Below are positions 1-21,492 of a stretch of DNA of 21,492 bases, piece by piece (within the stretch, counting starts at the first letter, position 1; each line of letters opens with the position of its first letter). The notes below the pieces were generated by a model. It made no database searches. It worked only from the letters and a program-made list of their open reading frames with translations, and was not told the DNA's origin. The stretch lies in the IMG/VR virus record IMGVR_UViG_3300044638_006042, positions 1 to 21,492 of that record; one strand, given 5' to 3'. Position numbers and translations under genes: made by a program. This DNA comes from a virus.

Positions 1-1510
1 TTGCCGTATTAGTTGGGGTAACTGTTTTTGTCGCAGTATTGGTTGGAGTTTCAGTATTTGTTGGCGTTATTGTTGGAGTTTTTGTCGCAGTATTGGTTGG
101 AGTTGCCGTATTTGTTGGCGTTGCTGTATTAGTTGGTGTTACTGTTTTTGTTGTAGTGTTTGTTGTAGTCACACTAGGAGTTAGTGTTGACGTTCTAGTA
201 TTAGTTACTGTGGCAGTAACGCTTGGAGTAATAGATGAAGTATTTGTTACTGTTGGAGTATTTGTTGGTGTAGCTGTTGGGGTTTTTGTATTAGTAGGAG
301 TAACTGTATTTGTTGGAGTTGGCGATGGTGGTATATAGTTATATACTCTTACATGACCGCTATCAATACCTCCCGCGTCGTTTAGTGGTGCTCCAATTGC
401 TAATACGCTACCATCGCTACTTAAACTAATACTACTACCACTTTCATCAAGACCAGCTTCGCCGTCTATATCATTGCCTAGTTGAGTCCATGAAGTTCCA
501 TTCCAAAAATATATTCTAACACTACCAACCGAAGTAATACCACTACTTCCACTATTCCGCGGTGCTCCAATTGCTAATATACTTCCATCACTACTTAAGC
601 TAACACTCCATCCACTACGAGTGCCATATGTTTCTCCAATTATATCGTTTCCTCTTTGAATCCAAGCAGTGCCATCCCAAAAGTAAACTCTAACATTACC
701 GGTATCAGCACCATTATTATCACTAAAAGCAGTTCCAATAGCTAATACGCTACCGTCACCATTTAAATCAACACTATCTCCACTCCGAACACTAAATATC
801 TCTCCGTCTATATCATTTCCTCGTTTAATCCAAGCAGTTCCATCCCAAAAGTAAACTCTAACACTTCCACTATCAGTACCATTACCATCATTTAGCTTTG
901 CTGCAATAGCTAATACGCTACCATTACTACTCAAACTAAGACTGCTACCGCTTTGATCGTTACTAGCTTCGCCGCCTATATTACTACCTAATTGAATCCA
1001 AGAAGTTCCATTCCAAGAATAAACTTTGGCGATACCATTATCAGTACGAGGACTAGTGTCCCCCATAGGTGCACCAATAGCTAATATGTTACCATTATCG
1101 CTTAAGCTAACGCTTTCACCACTTTGCCCTAAACTGTCTCCATTTATATCGCTTCCTTTCTGAATCCAAGAAGTTCCATCCCAAAAATAAACTCTAACAT
1201 GTCCGCTATTAGCACTATTACCATCGTTGTAAGGAGCCCCAATAGCTAATACGCTACCGTCACTACTTAAGCTAACACTAGTTCCGCTATAATCGTCAAA
1301 TGCTTCTCCGTTTATATCGCTACCTCTTTGAATCCAAGCAGTTCCATTCCAAGAATAAACTCTAACATGTCCGCTATTAGCACTATTACCATCGTTGTAA
1401 GGAGCCCCAATAGCTAATACGCTTCCGTCACTACTAAGACTTACACTCCATCCGCTACTATCATTAGCTGCTTCTCCATCAATGTCATTTCCTTTCTGAA
1501 CCCAACTCAT
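1..1510 (-). CDS. Seven-repeat beta-propeller protein with Pro/Thr-rich stalk (C-terminus beyond window)
   Basis: The frame is open from an ATG at 1510 to the window edge (503 codons, no stop), so the protein is C-terminally partial. The first ~390 residues hold seven repeats of about 56 residues, each with a core like [16 protein letters not shown], then [10 protein letters not shown] and WIQRGSDI. This looks like FG-GAP/integrin-type or related propeller blades. The N-terminal WVQKGNDI half-blade and the last HVRVYNY strand could close a seven-bladed ring. From about residue 393 the chain becomes PTPTNT/TATKT repeats, an extended and possibly glycosylated stalk. There is no signal peptide. 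The ATG overlaps the subtilisin stop (ATGA), implying translational coupling. Likely an extracellular or virion-surface binding protein such as a fibre, but this is inferred from architecture. Repeats at 1186-1255 and 1354-1423 are identical. Confidence 0.8.
1186..1423. repeat. 70-bp perfect direct repeat within the propeller gene
   Basis: Bases 1186-1255 and 1354-1423 are identical by eye, with a period of 168 bp, exactly 56 codons. They encode the same part of two neighbouring blades. The other blades match only at protein level, so this pair looks like a recent in-frame duplication or gene conversion. Confidence 0.85.
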
Positions 1511-2433
1511 AAGTTCACCTTGATAATCCCATACCCTTGGTATTTACGTTGTTTATATGTTGGGTTTGTTAATTCTATTGTCATGGTCGATAAAACTCGT
1601 AAATAATCGTCAATATTATTTAATTGATATTTATTTGTTCTTCTATTATATGCCAATAATAATGCTGCACATCCAGTAACATAAGGATTACTCATACTAG
1701 TACCACTCATAATAGCATAACCATTATTTGGAGCCAAACTAAAAATATTATGTCCTGGAGCAAGAAAATCCAATGATTCTCCAGCACAACTAAATTTTGT
1801 TCTTTCAAAGTTTTCATCTATAGCTCCAGTAGATATAACTTCTTTATATTTTGCAGGATACATAACGTCCACATTTTCTCCACTGTTTCCGGCAGCAGCA
1901 AAAACTATACACTTTTTAGACAATGCATATTCTATAGCTTTTAGTAGTTCGTTCGATTGGTTGGGGGATCCTAAACTCATAGTAATAAAATCAGCACCAT
2001 TATCAGCACTCCAAATAATTCCATTAACAACAGAGTCTAAAGAACCTTGTCCTTTAGCTCCCAACGCTTTAATTGGCATAATTTTAGCTCTTGGTGCCAC
2101 ACCCACCATACCTAATCCATTGTTCTCTGCCCCTATGGTTCCACACACATGACTACCATGCCCATTATCATCTTGAGGACTTTTATCATGATCTACAAAA
2201 TTTCTACCATCTACTAAATTATTCTTAATATCACTATGATTTAAATCACATCCAGTATCCACAACAGCAATTATAATATCTTCTCCTTGAGATTGTATCC
2301 ACTGTTGATCAATCCCTAATTTAGTGATTTCCCAGCCCAAAACTTGACCAGCACCAGGATTAAAGCCGTATACTTCTTTTTTAATATGTGGTAAAAGAGA
2401 GAATTCTTTTTTGCTTCTTTTTTTAAATAACAT
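1507..2433 (-). CDS. Intracellular-subtilisin-like serine protease (peptidase S8)
   Basis: 308 residues with the complete S8 triad: Asp59 in [13 protein letters not shown], His92 in [11 protein letters not shown] and Ser246 in [12 protein letters not shown], plus oxyanion Asn183 in AAAGNSG. No signal peptide is present; the N-terminus is Lys/Arg-rich. Residues 13-20 (LLPHIKKE) resemble the LIPY-type propeptide of Bacillus intracellular subtilisins, and DTGCD also matches that group. It is therefore expected to be a cytoplasmic peptide-bond hydrolase. The ATG overlaps the actin-like gene's stop (TAATG) and its own stop overlaps the propeller gene's ATG, so it is the central link of a coupled operon. 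Family is secure; the target is unknown. It might mature the propeller protein or other virion proteins, or act on host proteins. Confidence 0.93.
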
Positions 2434-3434
2434 TACAACACCTTAGAAGCAACTAGACAACCTTTAGCAACGGCATATAGAGGATCAGTAGCATGTCTGA
2501 CCTCTTTTACTGCTAATGGAAAATTGTTTTCTGTTAATTTTTTAGAAAATTCTTCAACATATCCCTTGGCTTGAGATGTTCCACCAGCTACCACTATTGT
2601 TAGTGGATTTTTAAATTTGGGTAGTGCTTTATGTTTATTTAGAGCTATAGCTAAATTTTTAGTAGTATAATCTATTAGTCTTTCATAATAAGCAGAAACA
2701 GCGGCTAATACTGGATTATCAACTGGTTGCCCAATTGTAAATCCACCACCCTCTTTTTCAGCTTGAACAACACTATCAGTTTCCCCTGTTGCAACAGCGG
2801 TCATTCTATCTATCCAGTCACCAGATTTTGTCGTACTAAATACTACTGTTGGTTCGCCATTTAACATCACACACACGTTTGTCATACCTGCACCACAAGA
2901 TATTCCTATACCGGTATAATCTTCTTGCTCTAATTCAGCATAACATAAAGCTTCAGCTTCGTTAATAGCTTTTGCATCGTAGCCAGATTCTTTCAATATT
3001 GTTGTGACCACATCTTCATGATATCCAACATCAAAATCATCATCCTCTTGGTCAACTGGTTGTGCCGGTACACAGAATATCAATTTCTCATTAGGCTCAG
3101 AAGCCTGCCCCACGACCTCTTTTAAAATAAAAGCCAGTATACGCTTGGCATCTTTTTCTTTAGCTGAGACCACGCCACGATACATTGGTCTTTTTGCTGT
3201 ATCATTTCTTTCTATTGCTTTTTCTATAGCATCTTTACCTAATAAAATAAAAGATCCATCAGTATCTTTGATGAAAACCTTCCCAGCCAAACCCTTTTCT
3301 ATCATCTTGGTTGCCACGGGGGTTGTTGGTTTGATAATATAAAAAGCATCTCTAAAATCTTTATATACTATCTTGTTGTCTTTTTCTGATGACAATACAA
3401 TAAAACTTGTACCCACATCTAATCCAACTCCCAT
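2433..3434 (-). CDS. Actin/MreB/Hsp70-superfold ATPase-like protein
   Basis: 333 residues with the actin-fold order: phosphate-1 loop GVGLDVGTSFIVLSS at the N-terminus, a connect-like NEAEALCYAE near residue 160, a phosphate-2-like loop GIGISCGAGMTNVCVML near 175, and adenosine loop VVAGGTSQAKGYVEEF near 285. GKDAIEKAIE and the later CVPAQPVDQ resemble MreB-like proteins. The phosphate-2 motif has Ser where DxGGG families have the conserved Asp, so hydrolysis may be altered or lost. No membrane segment or signal peptide is visible. It lies 4 bp downstream of the trypsin-like gene and overlaps the subtilisin gene by one base. Possible roles are a filament-forming cytoskeletal protein, a segregation protein or a chaperone-like ATPase. 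The superfamily call is good; the specific family is not recognised. Confidence 0.78.
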   Translation of the reverse strand: MGVGLDVGTSFIVLSSEKDNKIVYKDFRDAFYIIKPTTPVATKMIEKGLAGKVFIKDTDGSFILLGKDAIEKAIERNDTAKRPMYRGVVSAKEKDAKRILAFILKEVVGQASEPNEKLIFCVPAQPVDQEDDDFDVGYHEDVVTTILKESGYDAKAINEAEALCYAELEQEDYTGIGISCGAGMTNVCVMLNGEPTVVFSTTKSGDWIDRMTAVATGETDSVVQAEKEGGGFTIGQPVDNPVLAAVSAYYERLIDYTTKNLAIALNKHKALPKFKNPLTIVVAGGTSQAKGYVEEFSKKLTENNFPLAVKEVRHATDPLYAVAKGCLVASKVL

Positions 3435-3438
3435 AATG

Positions 3439-4551
3439 TTAACCTTTCATATTTTTTAGTTTGCTTACTGAATTAGTAATATTTTCTTCTGATTTTTTAA
3501 TATCGCCTAATTGTTCGTATTTTTTTTCTAGATTATCTGTATTTATACTAACTACAATTTTTCTTGAATCAATATTGGCTAATTCTTGTTTTTCTATATC
3601 TACATTACGAGATACAGATTTCAAAGGGGTCTTGGAAATCAGCTGACTATTGGATGATAAACTTAACTTACACCATAGATATCCAACCAGAAAAAACGCT
3701 AAATTTATTCCTAAATATAAACTGGTCATTAAATAACTATAGTGTTCTGTTAGTAAATTTGTTTGAAATTTAATTACTTTTGATTCTTTATTTTCAGTAT
3801 CTTCATTGTGCATATTTTCTTCAATCCATTTAATATGCTGACTAATTCTAGTATGACCAGAACAATCGGTATATGTTGAATCTGTTTTTTTATCTATTGC
3901 CATAACACACGAATTAATACCGGCTAATTTTTGATCTATAAACAAGCCCCCGCCACTATCTCCACTAGCTATCAAAAACTCTAATTGTGTTCTTAGCTTA
4001 TCTTCTTTTTTTGACGGAGAACAGACTAATAAATCTCTATCTATTTCGTCAACAAAATTAGATCCCGCTCTTTTTTTGCCGTCAGAATGGGAATATCCTT
4101 TATTAAATGTTCCCGTAAACCCGTATCCAGCTATACTACAGAGTTTACCAACCTCATTAGGTTCAGTATATAAAGCAGGGAAAAAATCAAGATTTATTGC
4201 CTCTTCTGTATAACCTAAAGCTATATCATGCCAACCAAATTGCTTGTCTCCATATCCTGAATGAACAATAATTTTAGATAAACAATATTCTTTGTTATTA
4301 TCGTCTATAACTTTTGCAGATACGCAGTCATTGACTATATGTGCGGCAGTCAATACCCAGTGTTTATCAATAGCTACAGCAGTAGCAGCGTACAGACCAT
4401 CCTTGTTATCTCTGCCATATATTCTTAATACGTGCTTAAATTTACTGCCATACGCCAGATATTGATCGTCAGGGGTTGTTGGATCAATAGTTCCTGCTAA
4501 GATAGTTCCACAGAATATGGATACTAATAATAAGACTATGTTCTTTAACAT
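3439..4551 (-). CDS. Exported membrane-anchored trypsin-like serine protease (peptidase S1)
   Basis: 370 residues from the ATG at 4551, preferred over a GTG at 4587 because it gives a clean signal peptide (residues 1-20, basic start, hydrophobic core, ILAG end) and has AAGGA nine bases upstream. The S1 triad is complete: His71 in VLTAAH, Asp109 in WHDIALGY and Ser199 in ASGDSGGGLF. A second hydrophobic segment at about 272-297 should stop transfer and anchor the protein, followed by a ~70-residue polar, Lys/Glu-rich tail that would be cytoplasmic. The protease domain would thus sit outside the membrane and the tail inside, where it could contact the actin-like protein or subtilisin encoded next. 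First gene of the four-gene unit, after a 118-bp gap. Substrate unknown. Confidence 0.9.
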   Translation of the reverse strand: MLKNIVLLLVSIFCGTILAGTIDPTTPDDQYLAYGSKFKHVLRIYGRDNKDGLYAATAVAIDKHWVLTAAHIVNDCVSAKVIDDNNKEYCLSKIIVHSGYGDKQFGWHDIALGYTEEAINLDFFPALYTEPNEVGKLCSIAGYGFTGTFNKGYSHSDGKKRAGSNFVDEIDRDLLVCSPSKKEDKLRTQLEFLIASGDSGGGLFIDQKLAGINSCVMAIDKKTDSTYTDCSGHTRISQHIKWIEENMHNEDTENKESKVIKFQTNLLTEHYSYLMTSLYLGINLAFFLVGYLWCKLSLSSNSQLISKTPLKSVSRNVDIEKQELANIDSRKIVVSINTDNLEKKYEQLGDIKKSEENITNSVSKLKNMKG

Positions 4552-4669
4552 ATAGGAGGTTCCTTGAGAGTATACAATATAATACACTCATATAGGAATA
4601 TTCGTCCTATTTAAAGAGATCTCAAAGGACCGCTAAATCGACCAGACTACTAAGCTTTGAGCAACATTT
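4552..4669 (-). promoter_or_regulatory. Intergenic gap with possible promoter for the protease/actin-like operon
   Basis: An unusually long gap for this gene-dense region, lying between the HNH stop and the trypsin-like start. On the minus strand TTGAGA is followed 17 bp later by AATATT, a weak sigma70-like pair (roughly 4-5 of 6 matches each). A TTTAAATA element is also present. AAGGA precedes the ATG. This makes a separate transcription start plausible but not proven. Confidence 0.35.
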
Positions 4670-4984
4670 TTATTTATATGGTCTGTTTTTTATTTTGTCC
4701 AATATAATTTGACAATCATTTTCAACATTTGGATTCCAACTCTTAAAATCCATAAAATGACCAAATAATAAATGACAAGAATTAGCACACAGTGAAATTA
4801 GATTAGACGGTTCTAACTCTAGTTCTGGAGCGAGATGTACTGGTTCAATATGATGGACTTCTATATCCTTGTTCTTTCCGCAAGCCGCACAGGTATTATT
4901 CTTTTTGAGAAATTCTTTTCTAACAGTTTTCCATCTGCTAGAACGGATCGCATATCGTAATTCTTTACGAAAAATATTCAGCAT
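4670..4984 (-). CDS. HNH endonuclease, small
   Basis: 104 residues with a zinc-binding HNH core: Cys32-Cys35 (CAACG), His44-His45 (VHHIEPVH), Asn61 and Cys66 in SNLISLC, then Cys70-His71 and His76 in SCHLLFGH. The basic N-terminus (residues 1-30) would contact DNA. Proteins of this compact type are common in phages as stand-alone nicking or homing endonucleases. Its ATG overlaps the thioredoxin-like gene's stop (TAATG). DNA target unknown. It ends the upstream run before the 118-bp gap ahead of the protease operon. Confidence 0.85.
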   Translation of the reverse strand: MLNIFRKELRYAIRSSRWKTVRKEFLKKNNTCAACGKNKDIEVHHIEPVHLAPELELEPSNLISLCANSCHLLFGHFMDFKSWNPNVENDCQIILDKIKNRPYK

Positions 4985-5358
4985 TATTTAGAAATCCATT
5001 CTTTAAACTTCTCTTTTGAGTCATATCCAGTTATTCTTTTAGTTTCAACATTATTTTTATAGATCATATAGTCAGGTAATTGCCTAACTTTATATTCTTT
5101 AACCATATCTGGTCTATCGTTGAAATCAACATAACATACAATAAGATTCTCTACCAAACTTAGATCTTTATGAATATCATTTTTCATAACCAAACAAGCA
5201 GGACACCATTTTGCACCAAACACCAGTAGTATGTCTAATTTAATTTCTTTAGCTAGAATGAAAGCATCTTCTGGACTGTTTGTGAAAACAGGAGGGGTCG
5301 CAAAAACTGTCTGACTACTAATTAGTAGTGATAATATAAATATGAGAACCTTAACCAT
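4984..5358 (-). CDS. Exported thioredoxin-like protein
   Basis: 124 residues. An N-terminal signal peptide (residues 1-20, hydrophobic LIFILSLLISS core and TVFA end) precedes a thioredoxin fold with active site WCPAC (Cys52, Cys55) and a cis-proline-type RQLPDYMIY. The redox pair is intact, so it can exchange disulfides outside the cytoplasm. Phage thioredoxins are usually cytoplasmic, so the signal peptide is notable; candidate clients are exported cysteine-containing proteins such as the nearby trypsin-like protease. It starts 3 bp after the ruvB-like stop and is coupled to the HNH gene. Oxidase versus reductase activity cannot be told from the sequence. Confidence 0.85.
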   Translation of the reverse strand: MVKVLIFILSLLISSQTVFATPPVFTNSPEDAFILAKEIKLDILLVFGAKWCPACLVMKNDIHKDLSLVENLIVCYVDFNDRPDMVKEYKVRQLPDYMIYKNNVETKRITGYDSKEKFKEWISK

Positions 5359-5361
5359 GTA

Positions 5362-6255
5362 TTAGACATCTCCAAGAACTCTGCCTTTCTGTGTCCTAAT
5401 TACATACCCCATTCTAATTAAAAATGGCTCAATACTGTTTTCGATAGTTTCCATAGCAATACCAGTTAAAGAAGATATGCTTTTAAGACCCAATGGATTC
5501 ATTCTGTGCTTTTTCAAAACATCTAGATACATACGATCATACAAATCCAACCCTCTCTCATCAATACCCTGACTACTAAAAACCTTATCAATATCCACAG
5601 TAGAGTCTTTATAAAAAGATACAAAGCTCTTATACCACTGTAGTCTGGCATTTAAAATTCTTGGGGTTCCCTTGCTTCTTTTAGCAATTTCTAACAGATG
5701 TTCTGTTGAGATATTCAAACCAAGCTTATTAGCATTCGACTCTGCTAGTTTAGCTAAATCATCGGAGCTATAAAAAGACAAATGTTCTTTGATAGAGAAT
5801 CTATCATAAAACGGTTGACTTAAACTACCTCCGCTGGTAGTAGCACCAACCAAAGTAAATACTGGTAGTTCTATATTTTCTGGTTTATTTTCTATCACAA
5901 TACTCAGAACAAAATCTTCCATAACAGGATATAGAAATTCTTCCACAATCTTTGGTAGTCTATGAATCTCGTCAATAAATAGAACAGACCTTGGAGCTAT
6001 TCCCATTAAGTAAGGCAATAGATTTTTTATACTTCTAACATTAGCTCCGTTGACGGTATACAAATTCACGCCCATCTCCGTTGCTATGGCACTGGCTATG
6101 GTAGTCTTACCAAGGCCGGGAGGACCGTCTATTAAAACGTGAGGCATGACGGACGATGAATCTTTACAGCCCGCCACAACGATACGCAGACGGTCTACAA
6201 CCTCTGACTGACCGACAACATCATTAAAACAAGAAGGTCTAATAGCATTACTCAC
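5362..6255 (-). CDS. ruvB: RuvB-like Holliday-junction branch-migration helicase
   Basis: 297 residues, similar to bacterial RuvB along its length: IRPSCFNDVVGQ start, Walker A GPPGLGKT at 44-51, Walker B LFIDEIHRL at 92-100, LVGATT sensor 1, DRF with the probable arginine finger Arg152, sensor 2 GTPR at 196-199, and a C-terminal winged-helix domain ending EPFLIRMGYVIRTQKGR. It lacks the ~20 extra N-terminal and the last ~15 C-terminal residues of E. coli RuvB. GATTRAG of cellular RuvB is GATTSGG here, and the hairpin between Walker B and sensor 1 (which contacts RuvA in bacteria) is about four residues shorter. It overlaps by 8 bp the gene for a RuvA-domain-III-like protein. Likely a hexameric dsDNA motor in phage recombination. 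Confidence 0.92.
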   Translation of the reverse strand: MSNAIRPSCFNDVVGQSEVVDRLRIVVAGCKDSSSVMPHVLIDGPPGLGKTTIASAIATEMGVNLYTVNGANVRSIKNLLPYLMGIAPRSVLFIDEIHRLPKIVEEFLYPVMEDFVLSIVIENKPENIELPVFTLVGATTSGGSLSQPFYDRFSIKEHLSFYSSDDLAKLAESNANKLGLNISTEHLLEIAKRSKGTPRILNARLQWYKSFVSFYKDSTVDIDKVFSSQGIDERGLDLYDRMYLDVLKKHRMNPLGLKSISSLTGIAMETIENSIEPFLIRMGYVIRTQKGRVLGDV

Positions 6256-6685
6256 AATGATTTTCTCCCAATTTTGCTAGTGAATTCTTAACCAATAAAG
6301 CACAATCATCTGTTGGATTTTTTGAGAAAGTCGATCTGATTAAATTTTCTGACTCTGTTTTGGTAAATCCATAACCGACCAGTATTTTACAAGCTTTTGC
6401 TAAGAGTTCAACTCCGATTTCTTGTACTTCTACCTTTGGCTCTCTAGGTATCTGAGGCTGTTGTTGAATCTTATTAAGATCTGGACTATCTTCTTCGTAT
6501 ATTACCTTGATCTGTTTGATAGACCTAACAGTAAATACTGTGTCGCAGTCACAGACTACCTTGAATCCTTTTGTTTTAGCCTCTTTTATAGAAAGCCAGT
6601 GCTGAGATGAGCATTTTGGACAACTATAAATCAGGTTTATATCTGCGTCAATCGGTTTCAGGTTTTTCGTTTTGATTTTTATCAT
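6248..6685 (-). CDS. Zinc-ribbon protein with RuvA-domain-III-like C-terminus
   Basis: 145 residues. The N-terminal part has a four-cysteine zinc-ribbon candidate (Cys22, Cys25, Cys45, Cys47). A polar Pro/Gln-rich linker follows at about 68-88. Residues 93-140 resemble domain III of RuvA, the flexible RuvB-binding module: LAKACKILVGYGFTKTESEN matches the RuvA pattern A-x-x-x-L-x-x-x-G-Y/F-x-x-x-E-A/S, and CALLVKNSLAKLG matches its final helix. RuvA domains I and II, which form the tetramer and bind junctions, are absent. Its gene overlaps the ruvB-like gene by 8 bp, so a RuvB adaptor is the natural inference. GGAT/AAGGA precedes the ATG. The domain-III call is by eye; an unrelated small helical bundle remains possible. 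Confidence 0.62.
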   Translation of the reverse strand: MIKIKTKNLKPIDADINLIYSCPKCSSQHWLSIKEAKTKGFKVVCDCDTVFTVRSIKQIKVIYEEDSPDLNKIQQQPQIPREPKVEVQEIGVELLAKACKILVGYGFTKTESENLIRSTFSKNPTDDCALLVKNSLAKLGENHCE

Positions 6686-9075: not shown

Positions 9076-9933
9076 TCAATACTGGTCATCCTCATCATCA
9101 TAATCTTCATCCTCATCTTCTTCGTCAAACTGATCCCAATAGCTCTCATCATAATCATTCAGATAATCATCCTCATCATCCTCGTAATCATCCTGACTAA
9201 AATCAGCCTTATAAAGAGGCTTAAGTAATTCCCCCTCATACTCACCAACTACTTCGTAGCGACAAGTGCGAAGCTTTTCATAGTTGCAATCACTAGGGAC
9301 ACTGACAACATCCTTGGGATTAATCTTGACGATCACAATGCGGTCGCCAGCCTCAAGACTACCATAGCCAGCAACATAATTCAATGCTCCAGCATGAAGT
9401 CCATTAGAACAACCACGACCACGATCATCGTCTACCTTTGCTCGTTGCATTTCACAGACCTTACCAACTCTGTTGTCAAAAACTCCCCTATACTTATCCT
9501 TAAAGTCTGAACGAACAGCCTTATAGGCGAGGAAATAACCATCCTCAGTAATAGGCAGATGCTCATGCTCCAAGAAATCATACAGTTCCTTCTGACTCTG
9601 CATACTTGGATTTTCCATGAGATTATTCAGGAAATTAACAAGGGGCTGAAACGGCAATCCCTTGCTCATAAACTCCAGAATACGCTTACTAATACTGCCA
9701 TGAACTTCCTCACCCTCGTAGAGAACCTGTCCATTCTTAATCTCCACAAGACCATCGCTAAAAGAAGCAACAGCCTTTTGAACATCAACAACTTCCAACA
9801 GTTCCTCTGCCGTAGCAGTAGGAAGTCTTTCCAGAATCAACTTATAGTTAATATGATCTGGCAAAATTTGATAACTTTGATTATTCAACACCAGAGTTAG
9901 ATTCCCGTCAACGAACATAAATGGAACAGCCAT
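9076..9933 (-). CDS. rIIB: rIIB-like protein
   Basis: 285 residues resembling phage T4 rIIB and its homologues. Recognisable stretches are KRILEFMSKGLPFQPLVNFL, EHLPITEDGYFLAYKAV, CSNGLHAGALNYVAGYG and NPKDVVSVPSDC followed by CRYEVVGEYEG. rIIB works with rIIA and in T4 protects infected cells from prophage-encoded exclusion; the mechanism is not settled. The last ~45 residues are an extreme Asp/Glu/Tyr tail not typical of the family core, possibly an add-on. AGGAGA lies upstream of the ATG, and a near-consensus promoter is at 9977-10004. An HNH gene separates it from rIIA. Confidence 0.88.
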   Translation of the reverse strand: MAVPFMFVDGNLTLVLNNQSYQILPDHINYKLILERLPTATAEELLEVVDVQKAVASFSDGLVEIKNGQVLYEGEEVHGSISKRILEFMSKGLPFQPLVNFLNNLMENPSMQSQKELYDFLEHEHLPITEDGYFLAYKAVRSDFKDKYRGVFDNRVGKVCEMQRAKVDDDRGRGCSNGLHAGALNYVAGYGSLEAGDRIVIVKINPKDVVSVPSDCNYEKLRTCRYEVVGEYEGELLKPLYKADFSQDDYEDDEDDYLNDYDESYWDQFDEEDEDEDYDDEDDQY

Positions 9934-9976
9934 AATTTACATCTCCTATTGTTATTAGTTACCTGTGAGTGCTTCT

Positions 9977-10004
9977 ATTTTACTACAATCGGTCAGTCTG
10001 TCAA
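9977..10004 (-). promoter_or_regulatory. Sigma70-type promoter for rIIB
   Basis: Minus strand: -35 TTGACA (10004-9999, perfect), 16-bp spacer, -10 TAAAAT (9982-9977, 5 of 6). It overlaps the 3' end of the upstream HNH gene and leads into a ~40-nt leader with AGGAGA before the rIIB ATG, so rIIB can be expressed independently of the inserted endonuclease. Confidence 0.75.
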
Positions 10005-10472
10005 GAGGTCTTTAAGAAAAATCGTACTTTCGTGTATCGTCCCATCCCAATGGAATTTTGCGTGTTCTTTTTGTGATGGGAAAATCCACAAATTTTTTGG
10101 ATCATTATCTGTCTTAATTCCATTAACATGATGAACTACTTCAGATTTTGAAAGTTTTCTATTTAATAGATTTTCTGCTACTATTCTATGTCTTAGTTTT
10201 CTTTCTCCATTAATTGTTATACGATTATGCCCTGATTTAGTTAAACCGTGTTTAAAGCTTGGATGTGATTTGCCAGTTTTTTCATAATTTCTACCTTTTG
10301 ATCCTGACTGACAATCACTATAGTTTCTTATTAAGATTCCATACTTATTTAAGTTATTCCAAATTGCAGTATTGGAACAACCTTTTATTTTAGCTATCTC
10401 ATATGTAGATAAAGATTTCTCTATATATAGATCGTATAGTTCTTCATATGATAGCTTATAATTTTTAGGCAT
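9993..10472 (-). CDS. HNH homing-type endonuclease between rIIA and rIIB
   Basis: 159 residues. Residues 8-45 form a helix-turn-helix (LSTYEIAKIKGCSNTAIWNN). The HNH nuclease core follows: RHRIVAENLL, His114-His115 in EVVHHVNG, Asn127 in PKNLWIFPS and His137 in KEHAKFH. This is the usual HNH layout of phage free-standing homing endonucleases. An AGGAG site, overlapping the rIIA stop codon (TAGGAG), lies seven bases before the ATG. The gene is more AT-rich than rIIA and rIIB on either side, as expected for a later insertion. Its likely target is an endonuclease-free rIIA-rIIB junction, which is inference. Confidence 0.9.
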   Translation of the reverse strand: MPKNYKLSYEELYDLYIEKSLSTYEIAKIKGCSNTAIWNNLNKYGILIRNYSDCQSGSKGRNYEKTGKSHPSFKHGLTKSGHNRITINGERKLRHRIVAENLLNRKLSKSEVVHHVNGIKTDNDPKNLWIFPSQKEHAKFHWDGTIHESTIFLKDLLTD

Positions 10473-10481
10473 AGTACACTC

Positions 10482-13157
10482 CTACTTGATCAGACTACTC
10501 AACTGAATCTTAAATAGGTCAATATTTTCCTGGCTCATCTGCTCAACCCAATCCCTGCTCTGCTTTCCATAGTACGAGCGATCTTCAATGATAGGATTCT
10601 GATTAGATTTAAGATCTACCAGATTACCAGAGACTTGATGATTGCCCATAATAACCTTGAGCATAGGATTCTTGTCTACCTCAGTTTTAATCTTTTCCCT
10701 AATCTCAGAGATTCTCCATCTCTTCAAATCTTCCGTAGAAGTTCCACGAATAATCTTGAGATAAGCATCTGACTTACTATCACCAGAATACAAGTAATTA
10801 ACAATCATTTTTGTCAAGGTGTTGTAGGCCAAATTAGCATTACGAATCTCCTTGCCATCAACATTATCAATACCAACCTCTTTCATAAGCTTAGAGATAT
10901 GGGAAAGATATTCTGTTTGATTAAACCTTGGAATATTAAAAGGACTCACATGAACAGTATTAGCAAAGAACTCTGTGAGCATGGTCTTATTCAAGCAATC
11001 CACAAGAGTTTTGTTACCAATAAACTTATCATAATCCAGACCAAAGATATTCAGAATATGAAACATAAACTGCTTATCTGTTGTTCCATGTTGATAATAT
11101 CTGTATCCTCCGGTATTCTTCTCCTCTTCTGCGTAATCCTTCTTGCAATATTCAACAAGCTTGTTGATAGAAGCAAGATTCTTAAAGTGTTTTTGTGCTA
11201 CAACTTTGAGTTGACGCTTCAGAAAAACATTGAAGTTAATAAGATTGTAGTTATCCTTCTCAAGCTTTTTAAGGAAAGCTGTTTTGATAGCATAAATCTT
11301 ACTATTACCAATCAAGTCTTTTGTTATGCTCTTTAGAGTATCCTCTTGGAGAGTTCTAGCAATATCAGCAATCTCTGGACAACCAGACTCAGGTTCAGTT
11401 CCATACCTCAACATGGGAACATAAATAATCTCATCTTGTTCCAGAAAGTTTTCTAGTTGTTCTTCTGAAAGAATTCTTAGATGCGTAGCATCATTATAAG
11501 GATTAGTAATCTGCTTACTATCCTTATCATAGCCGTGAATAAAGAATACGTCTTGGTCGCTGACACTACCGTTAGAATTTCTATTGTAAGACTTTCTTGG
11601 GCCAGAACTTTGTGTCAGATGCTTATAGTCTGAAACCTTGAGCAAATTTTCAGCCCCAACATCTTCGATCAGTTGATCAAAACCTTCATTGCTTTTTGTA
11701 TGATCCTTAGTGTCGATCATCAGATAAGCAAAGCAATCGTTAGCATTGCAATATCTTGTGAGAATTTTCTTGGCACTTTCTTCACTAGCAACGTCGCACA
11801 CAAAGAAAGCCATTGTACCCTTTTTCTTCTGGTTATTCCAATAATAGGAACCTTTACCAGTAAGAGTTTCGTGATGGATTCTATCTGTCAGAGCAACTTG
11901 GCGACGAGAACGATAGCCAGCAGTCTTGTAATTAAAAACGTACAGACTCTTACCGGCAGGAATTTTATATTCCAAGTCATTGCCAGAGTTGATAGGATGA
12001 TCTTTACCCTTGGGATCAATCCAAGTTGCACCAACACCCCAGCCGCCAGCCAATTCATTCATAGTATAATATGAAGTAATTGCTTCTACTTTGTTCTTGG
12101 ACGCTTGAATTTTCTTGGAGAATTCTTCCTTCATCTCCATATAAATTTCTTGGGTCTTTTTACGCAGAGTCTTAATTACGTCCTTGGTATATTGTAGGTT
12201 TTCTCTACTAGCATCAATTTCCAATTCACCGATACCAAAATCAAGTTCAAGGTAAAGGCCGGAATTAATAATCTCACTAACAAAACTTTTCCAAGAATCA
12301 ATATCGGCTTTTTGGAAAGCTCTATTCCATTTCTGGATATGATCAGGCATCTCCTCCTTTTCCTGACCAACAATGTGTGCGGTTTCAGCAGGATACGCAA
12401 TATTCCCCATGATAGCAATTACTCCGCTATCAATCTTATGGTAATTATTTGGATAATAGCTATTGTCACTATTAATGCGACAAACTCTCCATCCATCACC
12501 ACTGATAATAATATTGGTATTACTGTACTTATGATCTTGGAGATTGGTTCCAATACCACCTTCAAGAATGGGTTTCATCCGAAAATAGTGGAAAATTCTC
12601 TTAGCTTTGTCTGTAAACTCTTGAAAATCATGTTGCTTAACTGCAAACTGAATTTCGAGTCCATTAGGTTCAGAAGTATCTGAAACACCGAATAGGCTTA
12701 GAGAAGGAATACCATCAGCACCGATGGCAGCAACATAAGTGTATTTTTTGCCATTGAAATACGATGTCGTAGTAAAGCTCTTAGAATATGCAAACGGGCT
12801 TTTAGAGCCTAAACCAAGACATCCCACAAAATCGTTACTATTATTCTTGTTCGATGCACCATAGGTAGTGTACAGGCTCTCCATATCTGCCTGACTAAGA
12901 CCAGTGCCATAATCTCTCACCATAAAAAGAGGATTAGCAGAGGTGGGAAGCGTTACCTTAAATGGATTCTTATTTCCTGCACTGATATGAGCATCCAAAG
13001 CATTGGTGCTAAGTTCTCTAATAACAGCCATAACCTTATCTGAGTACAAAGAATTACTCAAAATATGAAACATCTTTGATGATGTTTGAATAGAAAATTG
13101 GTTAGTTGAAGCAATTCCCTTGTGGTGTGTTTCAAAAGTTTTATCCGCAAGAAGCAT
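10482..13157 (-). CDS. rIIA: rIIA-like protein, GHKL ATPase
   Basis: 891 residues from the ATG at 13157, preferred over a TTG at 13172 because GGAGAG lies about seven bases upstream. The N-terminal 120 residues hold a GHKL/Bergerat ATP-binding site: RELSTNALDAH (Glu48, Asn52), RDYGTGLS (Asp82-Gly84-Gly86) and GCLGLGSKSPFAY (glycine-rich lid). The long C-terminal part, including YGTEPESGCPEIADIARTLQ, is lineage-specific. T4 rIIA is a membrane-associated protein acting with rIIB against lambda-encoded exclusion; this one is longer than the 725-residue T4 protein. A strong promoter precedes it at 13204-13232. The paired rIIB-like gene downstream supports the call. Confidence 0.9.
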   Translation of the reverse strand: MLLADKTFETHHKGIASTNQFSIQTSSKMFHILSNSLYSDKVMAVIRELSTNALDAHISAGNKNPFKVTLPTSANPLFMVRDYGTGLSQADMESLYTTYGASNKNNSNDFVGCLGLGSKSPFAYSKSFTTTSYFNGKKYTYVAAIGADGIPSLSLFGVSDTSEPNGLEIQFAVKQHDFQEFTDKAKRIFHYFRMKPILEGGIGTNLQDHKYSNTNIIISGDGWRVCRINSDNSYYPNNYHKIDSGVIAIMGNIAYPAETAHIVGQEKEEMPDHIQKWNRAFQKADIDSWKSFVSEIINSGLYLELDFGIGELEIDASRENLQYTKDVIKTLRKKTQEIYMEMKEEFSKKIQASKNKVEAITSYYTMNELAGGWGVGATWIDPKGKDHPINSGNDLEYKIPAGKSLYVFNYKTAGYRSRRQVALTDRIHHETLTGKGSYYWNNQKKKGTMAFFVCDVASEESAKKILTRYCNANDCFAYLMIDTKDHTKSNEGFDQLIEDVGAENLLKVSDYKHLTQSSGPRKSYNRNSNGSVSDQDVFFIHGYDKDSKQITNPYNDATHLRILSEEQLENFLEQDEIIYVPMLRYGTEPESGCPEIADIARTLQEDTLKSITKDLIGNSKIYAIKTAFLKKLEKDNYNLINFNVFLKRQLKVVAQKHFKNLASINKLVEYCKKDYAEEEKNTGGYRYYQHGTTDKQFMFHILNIFGLDYDKFIGNKTLVDCLNKTMLTEFFANTVHVSPFNIPRFNQTEYLSHISKLMKEVGIDNVDGKEIRNANLAYNTLTKMIVNYLYSGDSKSDAYLKIIRGTSTEDLKRWRISEIREKIKTEVDKNPMLKVIMGNHQVSGNLVDLKSNQNPIIEDRSYYGKQSRDWVEQMSQENIDLFKIQLSSLIK

Positions 13158-13203
13158 AATTATTCTCTCCAAATTTGTTTTCTTCCGTCCCTACGATGTT
13201 CGT

Positions 13204-13232
13204 ATTCTATCATCGGTAGTCTTGCTTGTCAA
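13204..13232 (-). promoter_or_regulatory. Sigma70-type promoter for rIIA
   Basis: Minus strand: -35 TTGACA (13232-13227, perfect), 17-bp spacer, -10 TAGAAT (13209-13204, 5 of 6). The -35 overlaps the stop codon of the upstream HNH gene. The leader to the rIIA ATG is about 40 nt and carries GGAGAG. Recognition by unmodified host polymerase, hence early expression, is inferred. Confidence 0.8.
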
Positions 13233-13828
13233 CCATTAGAAATAATTTTGTCTGCTTTGGCTAAGTTTTCTTTTGCCCATAATGGTTGGCAATTTGAGTA
13301 ATGAAAGAGTTTTTCTCTTTCTTCTATTGTGGTTGCAGATGCTATAGGCATTATGTGATCAACGTGCCATTTTCCTTGATTTTCCCAATTCATCCCATCT
13401 TTAAATTGGTTTTCTAAATGAGTCCAAAAATCTTTAACAGAGCATCCTAATAATTCTTCTGTTGCTTTACTTTTAATTCCGATTCCTTTTAATGCTTTAT
13501 TAATTCTGTTTTTATAGTTTTGTGTTAATCTATAGAGAGGGTCGTTGTCTTTTCTTTGTTTCTCATATTCTCTTTTATATTGTCTTCTTTTATCTGCTGT
13601 TCTTTGTTGATATTCTCTCTTTTGTTCTGAAATTCTTTCTTTATTTTTCTGATAATATTTTTTATGGTGTTCTAAAATTTTAGTTTTATTTCTATTGTTA
13701 TATTTTTGATCATCATCTTTTTTACACTGCCTGCAATACGTGTATAGTCCATCTTTATTGTTCTTGCATTTATGAAAATCGTTAGTGTGTTTTTCTTGAT
13801 TACATTTACAACAAATTTTAGTATTCAT
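13229..13828 (-). CDS. HNH endonuclease with N-terminal zinc finger and basic coiled coil
   Basis: 199 residues. Cys7-Cys10 and Cys32-Cys35 form an N-terminal zinc finger. Residues 40-95 are a Lys/Arg/Glu/Gln-rich helix, probably DNA-binding. ELLGCSVKDFWTHLENQF and GMNWENQGKWHVDHIMPI hold the nuclease core (His155, Asp157, His158), then HYSNCQPLWAKENLAKADK (Asn179, Asn188). This is a widespread phage HNH type. It sits directly upstream of rIIA and is visibly more AT-rich than rIIA, again suggesting a mobile gene. Its start overlaps the end of the upstream membrane-protein gene by 4 bp. Confidence 0.87.
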   Translation of the reverse strand: MNTKICCKCNQEKHTNDFHKCKNNKDGLYTYCRQCKKDDDQKYNNRNKTKILEHHKKYYQKNKERISEQKREYQQRTADKRRQYKREYEKQRKDNDPLYRLTQNYKNRINKALKGIGIKSKATEELLGCSVKDFWTHLENQFKDGMNWENQGKWHVDHIMPIASATTIEEREKLFHYSNCQPLWAKENLAKADKIISNG

Positions 13829-20157: not shown

Positions 20158-20185
20158 TTTATACACCATACTGGAAATTGGTCAA
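20158..20185 (-). promoter_or_regulatory. Sigma70-like promoter for the membrane-anchored protein
   Basis: Minus strand: TTGACC (20185-20180, 5 of 6), 16-bp spacer, TATAAA (20163-20158, 5 of 6). It overlaps the stop codon of the upstream HNH gene, as at rIIA and rIIB. Leader about 25 nt with GGAG. Confidence 0.6.
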
Positions 20186-21249
20186 TCGGTTTTATCCTTT
20201 ACTTCCTTCACATATTTCATCAATGGATTTTTTTGTTCGGGTATGATAGTCTTATGATTTCCTGCCCATAATGGCAGTTTACCAAACAAAGCTACTCTTT
20301 TTTTCTTTGATTTTTGTTTTTGGTATTCTTGTTGTTGAAGAATCTGGAAGATTTCTTCCTGTTCTATTTGTCTTTTACTTCGATATTGTTCGTCTCTTTT
20401 TTGTTTTTTTTGTTCCTCTGTGTGATTTTTTCTTGATTCTTTAATGAAATATGGATGTTCAGCAATAGTTTTTTTTAGCTTATCACTTGCTTCAGGATGA
20501 TTGAACAGTAATTCTATTAGCGGTCTATGATTATCTAAATATCTCCTAATATTTTTTTTGCTTTTTCTACTGTATTTGCGAACAGTATTGGTAATAAATT
20601 CTGTCTTGCTTTCTTCAATAGCAGGACGAAGGGCTCTATGATGTTTTTCTCTCTTTTGTTTTTTCTTTTTATGACCTTTAATGAATTGGTCGATTTCATC
20701 TCTTAGGTTTAACGCTATTGGTTTTGTTTCAATAGCTTTTGGTTGTTGTTCTTGTTTTTTGGTTTTATGTTTTTTGTATTTTTCTTTTTTGCGTTTTGAT
20801 TCAAGTATTCTAGTTGTATCATAACCTATGTCCGTATTGAATTTTTCAGCCCAGACTTGCCAGCCGTCTAATGTTGTGCTGCTATTTTCTGTGAATAATT
20901 TATTGAGAAGATATCTTTTTTGCAAGAGATTCTTATCTTGTTCTACAAAAACATGACAAGGTTCGCATAAAGTAATTAGCTGATGCTGATCTCCTTGTCC
21001 AAGCATCACTATTTTAGTATAGTCTATATGATGAATAGTTTTAGATGGAGTACCACAAACCTGACAACATCTACCATCTCTTTCTAAGACTAGTTGCCTT
21101 ATATTCCACCAGAGCCTAGATTTTATATAGGCATCATAACTTCTAAAACCTAGCTCTTTCCATGCTGGTGGCATAATTCTATATGTCTCTTTCTTCTCCA
21201 TGAAGAATCTTAAAGGTGGGAAATCGTAGACTAATACCTCCCTTTTCAT
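20182..21249 (-). CDS. HNH endonuclease with long basic C-terminal tail
   Basis: About 355 residues if the ATG at 21249 is used. In-frame ATGs at 21201 and 21174 are alternatives because the upstream ligase gene ends at 21179 and no strong Shine-Dalgarno decides. The HNH core is near the N-terminus: RLWWNIRQLVLERDGRCCQV, CQVCG, TIHHIDYTK, LITLCEPCH. The remaining ~240 residues are extremely Lys/Arg/Gln/Glu-rich and probably helical or disordered (HKKKKQKREKHHRALRPAIE, KNHTEEQKKQKRDEQYRSKR). That tail is unusual for phage HNH proteins and could bind nucleic acid. It lies immediately downstream of the ligase gene, as homing endonucleases often do next to replication genes. Confidence 0.8.
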   Translation of the reverse strand: MKREVLVYDFPPLRFFMEKKETYRIMPPAWKELGFRSYDAYIKSRLWWNIRQLVLERDGRCCQVCGTPSKTIHHIDYTKIVMLGQGDQHQLITLCEPCHVFVEQDKNLLQKRYLLNKLFTENSSTTLDGWQVWAEKFNTDIGYDTTRILESKRKKEKYKKHKTKKQEQQPKAIETKPIALNLRDEIDQFIKGHKKKKQKREKHHRALRPAIEESKTEFITNTVRKYSRKSKKNIRRYLDNHRPLIELLFNHPEASDKLKKTIAEHPYFIKESRKNHTEEQKKQKRDEQYRSKRQIEQEEIFQILQQQEYQKQKSKKKRVALFGKLPLWAGNHKTIIPEQKNPLMKYVKEVKDKTD

Positions 21250-21492
21250 TCTCTGTCTCTTCAAAATATTGGACAGTCACGATTTTGCCAAGAATCTTCT
21301 TAGGGTTCTTATAAAAGTCCTGTCTTTGTTCAATACTAAAACCAGACCCCACTCTTACTGTATGACCCTTATGCTGAATCATAACACAACTCAACATAGT
21401 TTCCTCACATTCTGCACCATCCTTAACATAACGGAATGGCCCCATTTCAGTATCTAGAACCTCATATTCATCATCAAAGAATGACTTATATT
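21179..21492 (-). CDS. ATP-dependent DNA ligase, C-terminal OB domain (partial)
   Basis: The frame is open to the window's right edge, so only the last ~104 residues are present. It reads YKSFFDDEYEVLDTEMGPFR, then TMLSCVMIQHKGHTVRVGSG, FSIEQRQDFY, LGKIVTVQYFEETENEKGG and SLRFPTFKILHG. The order (FFDDEYEV, VRVGSGFS, QR, GKIVTVQYFE, LRFPTF) matches the OB-fold domain of ATP-dependent DNA ligases such as those of T7- and T4-like phages. The adenylation domain with the KxDG lysine lies outside the window. An ATG at 21445 is internal and not the true start. It would seal nicks during phage replication and recombination. Confidence 0.85.
   Translation of the reverse strand, partial: YKSFFDDEYEVLDTEMGPFRYVKDGAECEETMLSCVMIQHKGHTVRVGSGFSIEQRQDFYKNPKKILGKIVTVQYFEETENEKGGISLRFPTFKILHGEERDI

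Follow-up and report, generated by a model that had tools for sequence, protein, structure and literature searches.

In the virus record IMGVR_UViG_3300044638_006042, analysed here over a stretch of 21,492 bases (the window, itself only a fragment), a phage-encoded RuvB motor is preceded by the gene of a 145-residue partner protein, which combines a predicted N-terminal zinc ribbon with a C-terminal three-helix domain that is homologous to domain III (DIII) of RuvA. In the textbook RuvAB machine, junction recognition falls to the RuvA tetramer, whose domain III drives the ring of RuvB. We consider it probable that the pair found here consists of a phage RuvB motor and a minimal substitute for RuvA, in which the DIII-like module would serve as docking element and cofactor and the ribbon as anchor. 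The ruvB and partner genes overlap, as described in the initial annotation of this DNA, here by 8 nt (5362-6255 and 6248-6685), and the partner gene in turn overlaps a gene for a putative winged-helix protein, all on the minus strand. The features of the locus are as follows:

6248..6685, minus strand: partner protein, 145 aa, with N-terminal zinc ribbon, linker and C-terminal RuvA DIII-like module (profile, hhalign and structure-model evidence).
6527..6634, minus strand: predicted zinc ribbon, about residues 18-53, with Cys22, Cys25, Cys45 and Cys47 (cysteine conservation, Zn_ribbon_5 below cut-off, strands in the model).
6251..6412, minus strand: RuvA DIII-like three-helix module, about residues 92-145 (hhalign and structure matches).
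5362..6255, minus strand: RuvB motor, 297 aa, with Walker A/B, E113/D114, R152, R199 and R287/K290/R292 (Pfam, alignment, structure of a relative).
5860..5916, minus strand: RuvB presensor-1 beta-hairpin, about residues 114-132, the E. coli RuvB L135-L152 region (alignment; range from PMC2628435).
6648..7085, minus strand: probable winged-helix protein, 145 aa, always upstream of ruvB in relatives (93/93 distinct relatives), its function being assigned by inference.

As a single sequence, the window partner gave no RuvA match in Pfam, and the likeness of its C-terminus to RuvA domain III, first noticed by eye, therefore needed a family-based test. With a profile built from 42 members, RuvA ranked first in the PDB (1ixs_A, E 5.3e-4; 1ixr_A, 3.1e-3), the best entry coming from a co-crystal of T. 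thermophilus RuvA domain III and RuvB, and a profile of the DIII-like part alone again placed only RuvA on top (1ixr_A, 0.0087). RuvA_C was the most-matched Pfam family (9/42 members, best 2.7e-4), and the NCBIfam model TIGR00084 (ruvA) was matched by 14 of the 42 (best 1.2e-4). Comparison of the partner family with 37 bacterial RuvAs by hhalign gave 95.4%, aligned to DIII only, as against at most 1.7% for 50 column shuffles, 0.1% for the reversed alignment and 0.3% for the zinc-ribbon half. An AlphaFold2 (AF2) model of the window partner (mean predicted local distance difference test score, pLDDT, 79.7; 82-88 in the module; low-confidence linker) has helices at residues 92-104, 109-122 and 128-141. 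In a VIA search with this model, the 13 best matches were all RuvA DIII (Z 8.2-6.7, root-mean-square deviation 1.4-2.1 over 46-52 residues), the first unrelated rows beginning at Z 5.6, and Foldseek likewise matched RuvA DIII, with weak E-values (0.14 or above) and a probability mostly of 0.95-1.00 in the top rows. The Z values by themselves are middling, and it is their agreement with the sequence evidence that decides the identity of the domain. An unrelated UBA-like three-helix bundle that resembles RuvA by convergence would fit the wide occurrence of this fold (UBA and CUE domains score Z 5.4 to about 4) and the weak single-sequence RuvA_C scores, but it is highly improbable given that RuvA was ranked first by the sequence-profile tests and by two structure-based searches and that the module-bearing gene adjoins RuvB. 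Thus, the resemblance seen by eye, together with the profile match then suggested as its check, has been substantiated. The partner gene is also under purifying selection (ratio of nonsynonymous to synonymous substitution rates 0.13-0.36 in nine pairs).

The conservation of the partner can be set against the known RuvA-RuvB contact. Cryo-electron microscopy has placed RuvA DIII on helix alpha3 and the presensor-1 hairpin of RuvB, where it is described as promoting nucleotide exchange and activating the ATPase (PMC9477746), and in E. coli, where the RuvB hairpin L135-L152 meets RuvA, RuvB is inactive in vivo when RuvA carries L167A or L170A (PMC2628435). Across the 42 partners, RuvA L167 aligns with L102 (Leu in 40, Met in 2), L170 with Y105 (Tyr in 37, Leu in 5), G171 with G106 and E176 with E111 (each 42/42), Y172 with Phe or Tyr 107, and L199 with L136. 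As judged from this alignment, the positions corresponding to L167, G171, Y172 and E176 are conserved. On the side of the motor, the hairpin of phage RuvBs keeps I128 (44/44; E. coli I150 in our own alignment) and L130 (40/44), while the bacterial hairpin tip motif GEGxxAR is gone from all phage RuvBs listed, in lineages with and without the partner alike. The initial annotation had taken a short hairpin as a sign of an altered partner. The hairpin is indeed shorter in the window (counting residues between the ED and FT motifs, 18 versus 22), but the inference drawn from it was rejected, since length varies irrespective of the partner: most phage relatives have 18 residues and others 22-27 (22 in 73/80 bacterial sequences), and length (18 versus 22 or more) shows no association with partner presence (Fisher p 0.57).

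Ahead of the shared RuvB-binding part, the partner differs from RuvA. Pfam found no RuvA_N (domain I, the oligonucleotide/oligosaccharide-binding fold for tetramer and junction) in the partner, and the helix-hairpin-helix domain II is absent as well, since the model shows the N-terminal part as a zinc ribbon, which scores 0.3% to RuvA in hhalign, so that the junction-binding domains are missing, as had been proposed. Cys22, Cys25, Cys45 and Cys47 are kept in 42/42 partners, and the model (pLDDT 88-96 over residues 11-60) has strands at 17-21, 28-32, 42-44 and 50-52, which places two cysteine pairs on a beta core and bears out the candidate zinc ribbon of the initial annotation as a predicted one; Pfam Zn_ribbon_5 matches at E 0.006, below the cut-off. 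The ribbon shares its C-x2-C ... C-x-C pattern and its strand order with zinc ribbons of the MJ0042/ZitP/GltJ kind, and ZitP (2nb9) and LysW-like chains are among its structural matches, although no sequence match to this group is significant. This weak likeness hints at protein contacts, while the net charge of the N-terminal tail (+4) and of the ribbon region (+3) suggests that the basic tail would allow DNA contact too. Compared with RuvA (TIGR00084; RuvA_C PF07499, RuvA_N PF01330), the partner has the three DIII helices, the residues aligned with L167, G171, Y172, E176 and L199, and a gene immediately upstream of ruvB, but a zinc ribbon in place of domains I and II, mostly Tyr at the L170 position, and 145 residues as against about 200. 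It is therefore not a member of the RuvA family, domains I and II being absent, but shares the RuvB-binding part.

The motor itself is a RuvB and not a clamp loader. The window protein matches Pfam RuvB_N (2.8e-47), AAA_lid_4 (6.9e-10) and RuvB_C (1.2e-17), all above the curated cut-offs, and a structure model of a RuvB relative retrieved RuvB chains at Z 34-25.6 and all else at 18.9 or below. Residues K50, T51, D95, E96, E113, D114, R152 and R199 are invariant in 44/44 RuvBs, which includes the trans-acting E113/D114, the arginine finger R152 and the sensor-2 R199, and the DNA hairpin motif R-x2-K-x-R (R287, K290, R292) is found in at least 43 of the 44. By our own alignment these three residues are equivalent to P. 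aeruginosa R314, R317 and R319, essential arginines of RuvB in that species (PMC10071043). Phage RuvB thus shares with bacterial RuvB the three domains, the Walker motifs, the arginine finger, sensor 2 and the DNA-contacting C-terminal hairpin, and differs in being phage-encoded, in its short N-terminus and in forming a deep clade of its own with at most 45% identity to the bacterial RuvBs found. The idea that the RuvB-like ATPase and its partner load the clamp, or serve the phage replisome as some other AAA+ loader, has in its favour that the sole clamp-loader profile match in 22 related contigs is RuvB itself, despite the DNA polymerase III alpha encoded there. The complete set of RuvB domains, RuvB_C among them, the DNA hairpin, the clearly RuvB structure (clamp loaders at Z 18.6 or below versus 34; phrog_168 at E 2.6e-19 versus 2.8e-47 for RuvB_N) and the DIII-like partner nevertheless make such a loader scarcely credible. 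A phage beta clamp N-domain was likewise not found in the related contigs, and thus the host clamp and loader probably serve.

Scans of IMG/VR with RuvB and partner queries gave many loci, which belong to a family of large, uncultivated phages and among which 93 distinct RuvBs were counted. A homologous partner gene lies immediately upstream of ruvB in 76 of the 93, the stop codon falling between -5 and +47 nt relative to the start of RuvB, so that the pairing recurs in other phages, where the initial annotation had suggested looking for it; the remaining 17 have no adjacent partner. All 146 partner open reading frames found adjoin a RuvB, and although most of these loci were fetched via RuvB, those fetched via partner queries agree. 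This coupling bears on the idea that the partner is a decoy, a free DIII that blocks host RuvAB and shuts off host repair or fork reversal during infection. Retention of only the RuvB-binding domain would suit a decoy, but a decoy needs neither a motor of its own nor a conserved zinc ribbon, and the phage RuvB that adjoins all 146 partner frames has intact active-site residues; we regard this explanation as very unlikely.

On the RuvB tree, the phage sequences are split from the 11 bacterial sequences used with support 100/100, and partner absence requires about 10 changes, at least 8 of them forced by well-supported branches. This tree is most naturally read as losses from an ancestor that had the partner, although gains are also possible. 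Since the partner is missing in some RuvB-bearing phages, certain lineages seem to do without it or to use a replacement, which might be host RuvA. A related proposal is that host RuvA brings phage RuvB to junctions throughout and that the DIII-only protein is a regulator, which adjusts ATPase activity or vies with RuvA for access to the hairpin. The 17 phages in which RuvB stays conserved without a partner are as expected if host RuvA suffices, and cross-species RuvA/RuvB complementation is cited in PMC9477746. Loss of the GEGxxAR tip from all phage RuvBs listed, with or without partner, speaks against this proposal, as do the ribbon cysteines kept in 42/42 partners, which a mere competitor would not need, and we consider a purely regulatory role unlikely, if less so than a decoy. 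The bacterial RuvBs nearest by score (L105-L111 genome contigs, up to 45% identity) are mostly from Planctomycetota, a hint to origin or host that is uncertain owing to long branches.

The gene upstream of the pair deserves mention in this context, as the putative winged-helix gene lies upstream of ruvB in 93/93 distinct relatives, also where the zinc-ribbon partner is missing, and its product may be a more constant companion of phage RuvB than the partner is. It matches no significant family and has weak winged-helix-like matches, and in an annotated phage collection no phage matches the partner or this winged-helix neighbour.

The genomic context was sampled in the 22 related contigs (100-238 kb, of which the records may be incomplete). 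They encode a RecA family protein (21/22), DNA polymerase III alpha (21/22) and an ERCC4 nuclease (15/22), whereas RuvA_N was detected in 0/22 (controls over the cut-off in 10/14), RuvC over the cut-off in 0/22 and the beta-clamp N domain in 0/22. A RuvC-like match in one contig (E 0.003, below the cut-off, within a 5392-aa frame) was taken as chance. Plain Pfam RuvA_C was found in none of the 18 of these contigs searched with it, but this search is blind to the partner family even where the partner is present, so that for contigs lacking the partner gene its absence was judged by the partner and DIII profiles. A normal ruvA elsewhere in the genome, which would have undermined the initial annotation, was thus not detected with RuvA_N or RuvA_C in the related large contigs, the window being a fragment. 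As to the polymerase, in one contig (G001:C1:224625-231400) DNA polymerase III alpha is split into two genes, a PHP/NTPase part and a finger/OB part, between which lie an 816-aa open reading frame (RCC1-like by eye) and an RNase_T exonuclease. In another (G009:C1:74252-75095) the match is spread over several short frames with stops, unlike in the other contigs, indicating a broken gene, an insertion or sequence errors.

Several genes in the window accompany the locus. A Volactin-family actin (Pfam E 7.4e-64; 2433-3434, minus strand) lies near ruvB; in the annotated phage collection this family is confined to two records of uncultured phages, 485 and 595 kb in size. Subtilisin-like (1507-2433) and trypsin-like (3439-4587) protease genes were recognised by eye from translations within 1507-4587, minus strand. 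The intervals 4670-5358, 9993-10472, 13229-13828 and 20182-21264, minus strand, encode a thioredoxin, which lies next to ruvB and may carry a signal peptide, and several HNH-type proteins, of which Pfam identified one and inspection by eye the rest. Adjacent rIIA and rIIB homologues occupy 9076-13172, minus strand, in phages whose replisome is Pol III-like and not T4-like.

For the phage RuvB with its minimal RuvA substitute, we propose that the DIII-like module docks on the presensor-1 hairpin and helix alpha3 of RuvB, as in RuvAB, and would serve the ring as a cofactor for nucleotide exchange and ATPase activation. Less certainly, it might be the zinc ribbon with the basic N-terminal tail, and not a RuvA tetramer, that anchors the ring to a protein or to branched DNA in the phage RecA/DNA polymerase III-type replication and recombination machinery. 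RuvB might then pump DNA through recombination or reversed-fork intermediates, and another nuclease, such as the encoded ERCC4 family protein, might cut in place of RuvC. The ribbon as a targeting unit is the least certain part of this mechanism.

Several points weigh against this proposal. The known RuvAB mechanism depends centrally on anchoring by the RuvA tetramer, 17/93 phages keep RuvB with no partner next to it, and searches of seven large contigs of this partner-less kind with the full partner profile and the DIII-only profile found nothing elsewhere. The position of RuvA L170 is Tyr in most partners, and a model predicted for a natural stop-readthrough of an in-frame partner-RuvB pair (L025) reached pLDDT 81.6 and a predicted template modelling score of 0.64, a score from which the position of the module is not readable. 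Furthermore, the ribbon has no significant sequence relative that would name its target, the top PDB match being GltJ/AglX (7zok) at E 0.21.

Jumbo-phage Holliday-junction systems (RuvC, endonuclease VII, RusA) also serve recombination in large phages, but in the present case RuvB occurs and RuvC does not. In a survey that covered 224 jumbo phages, no RuvB of their own coupled to their RuvC was reported, and no phage RuvB with a RuvA-like partner was found in the open-access literature searched.

The truncated partner suggests that the RuvB motor can be aimed by something besides RuvA. It is quite possible, though we put this wider view forward more tentatively than the proposal for the pair itself, that RuvB is a modular AAA+ pump for duplex DNA whose DIII cofactor and targeting unit are separable, and that a zinc-ribbon adaptor delivers it beyond the RuvA-bound Holliday junction, for example to a replisome or nuclease, as a RuvA-independent machine. 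A natural system that has the drive contact but lacks the junction-binding core would separate RuvB activation from targeting, so that each could be tested alone, and would be a case of large phages operating a RuvB of their own. Ready-made comparisons are offered by the RuvB tree, on which the partner is absent repeatedly.
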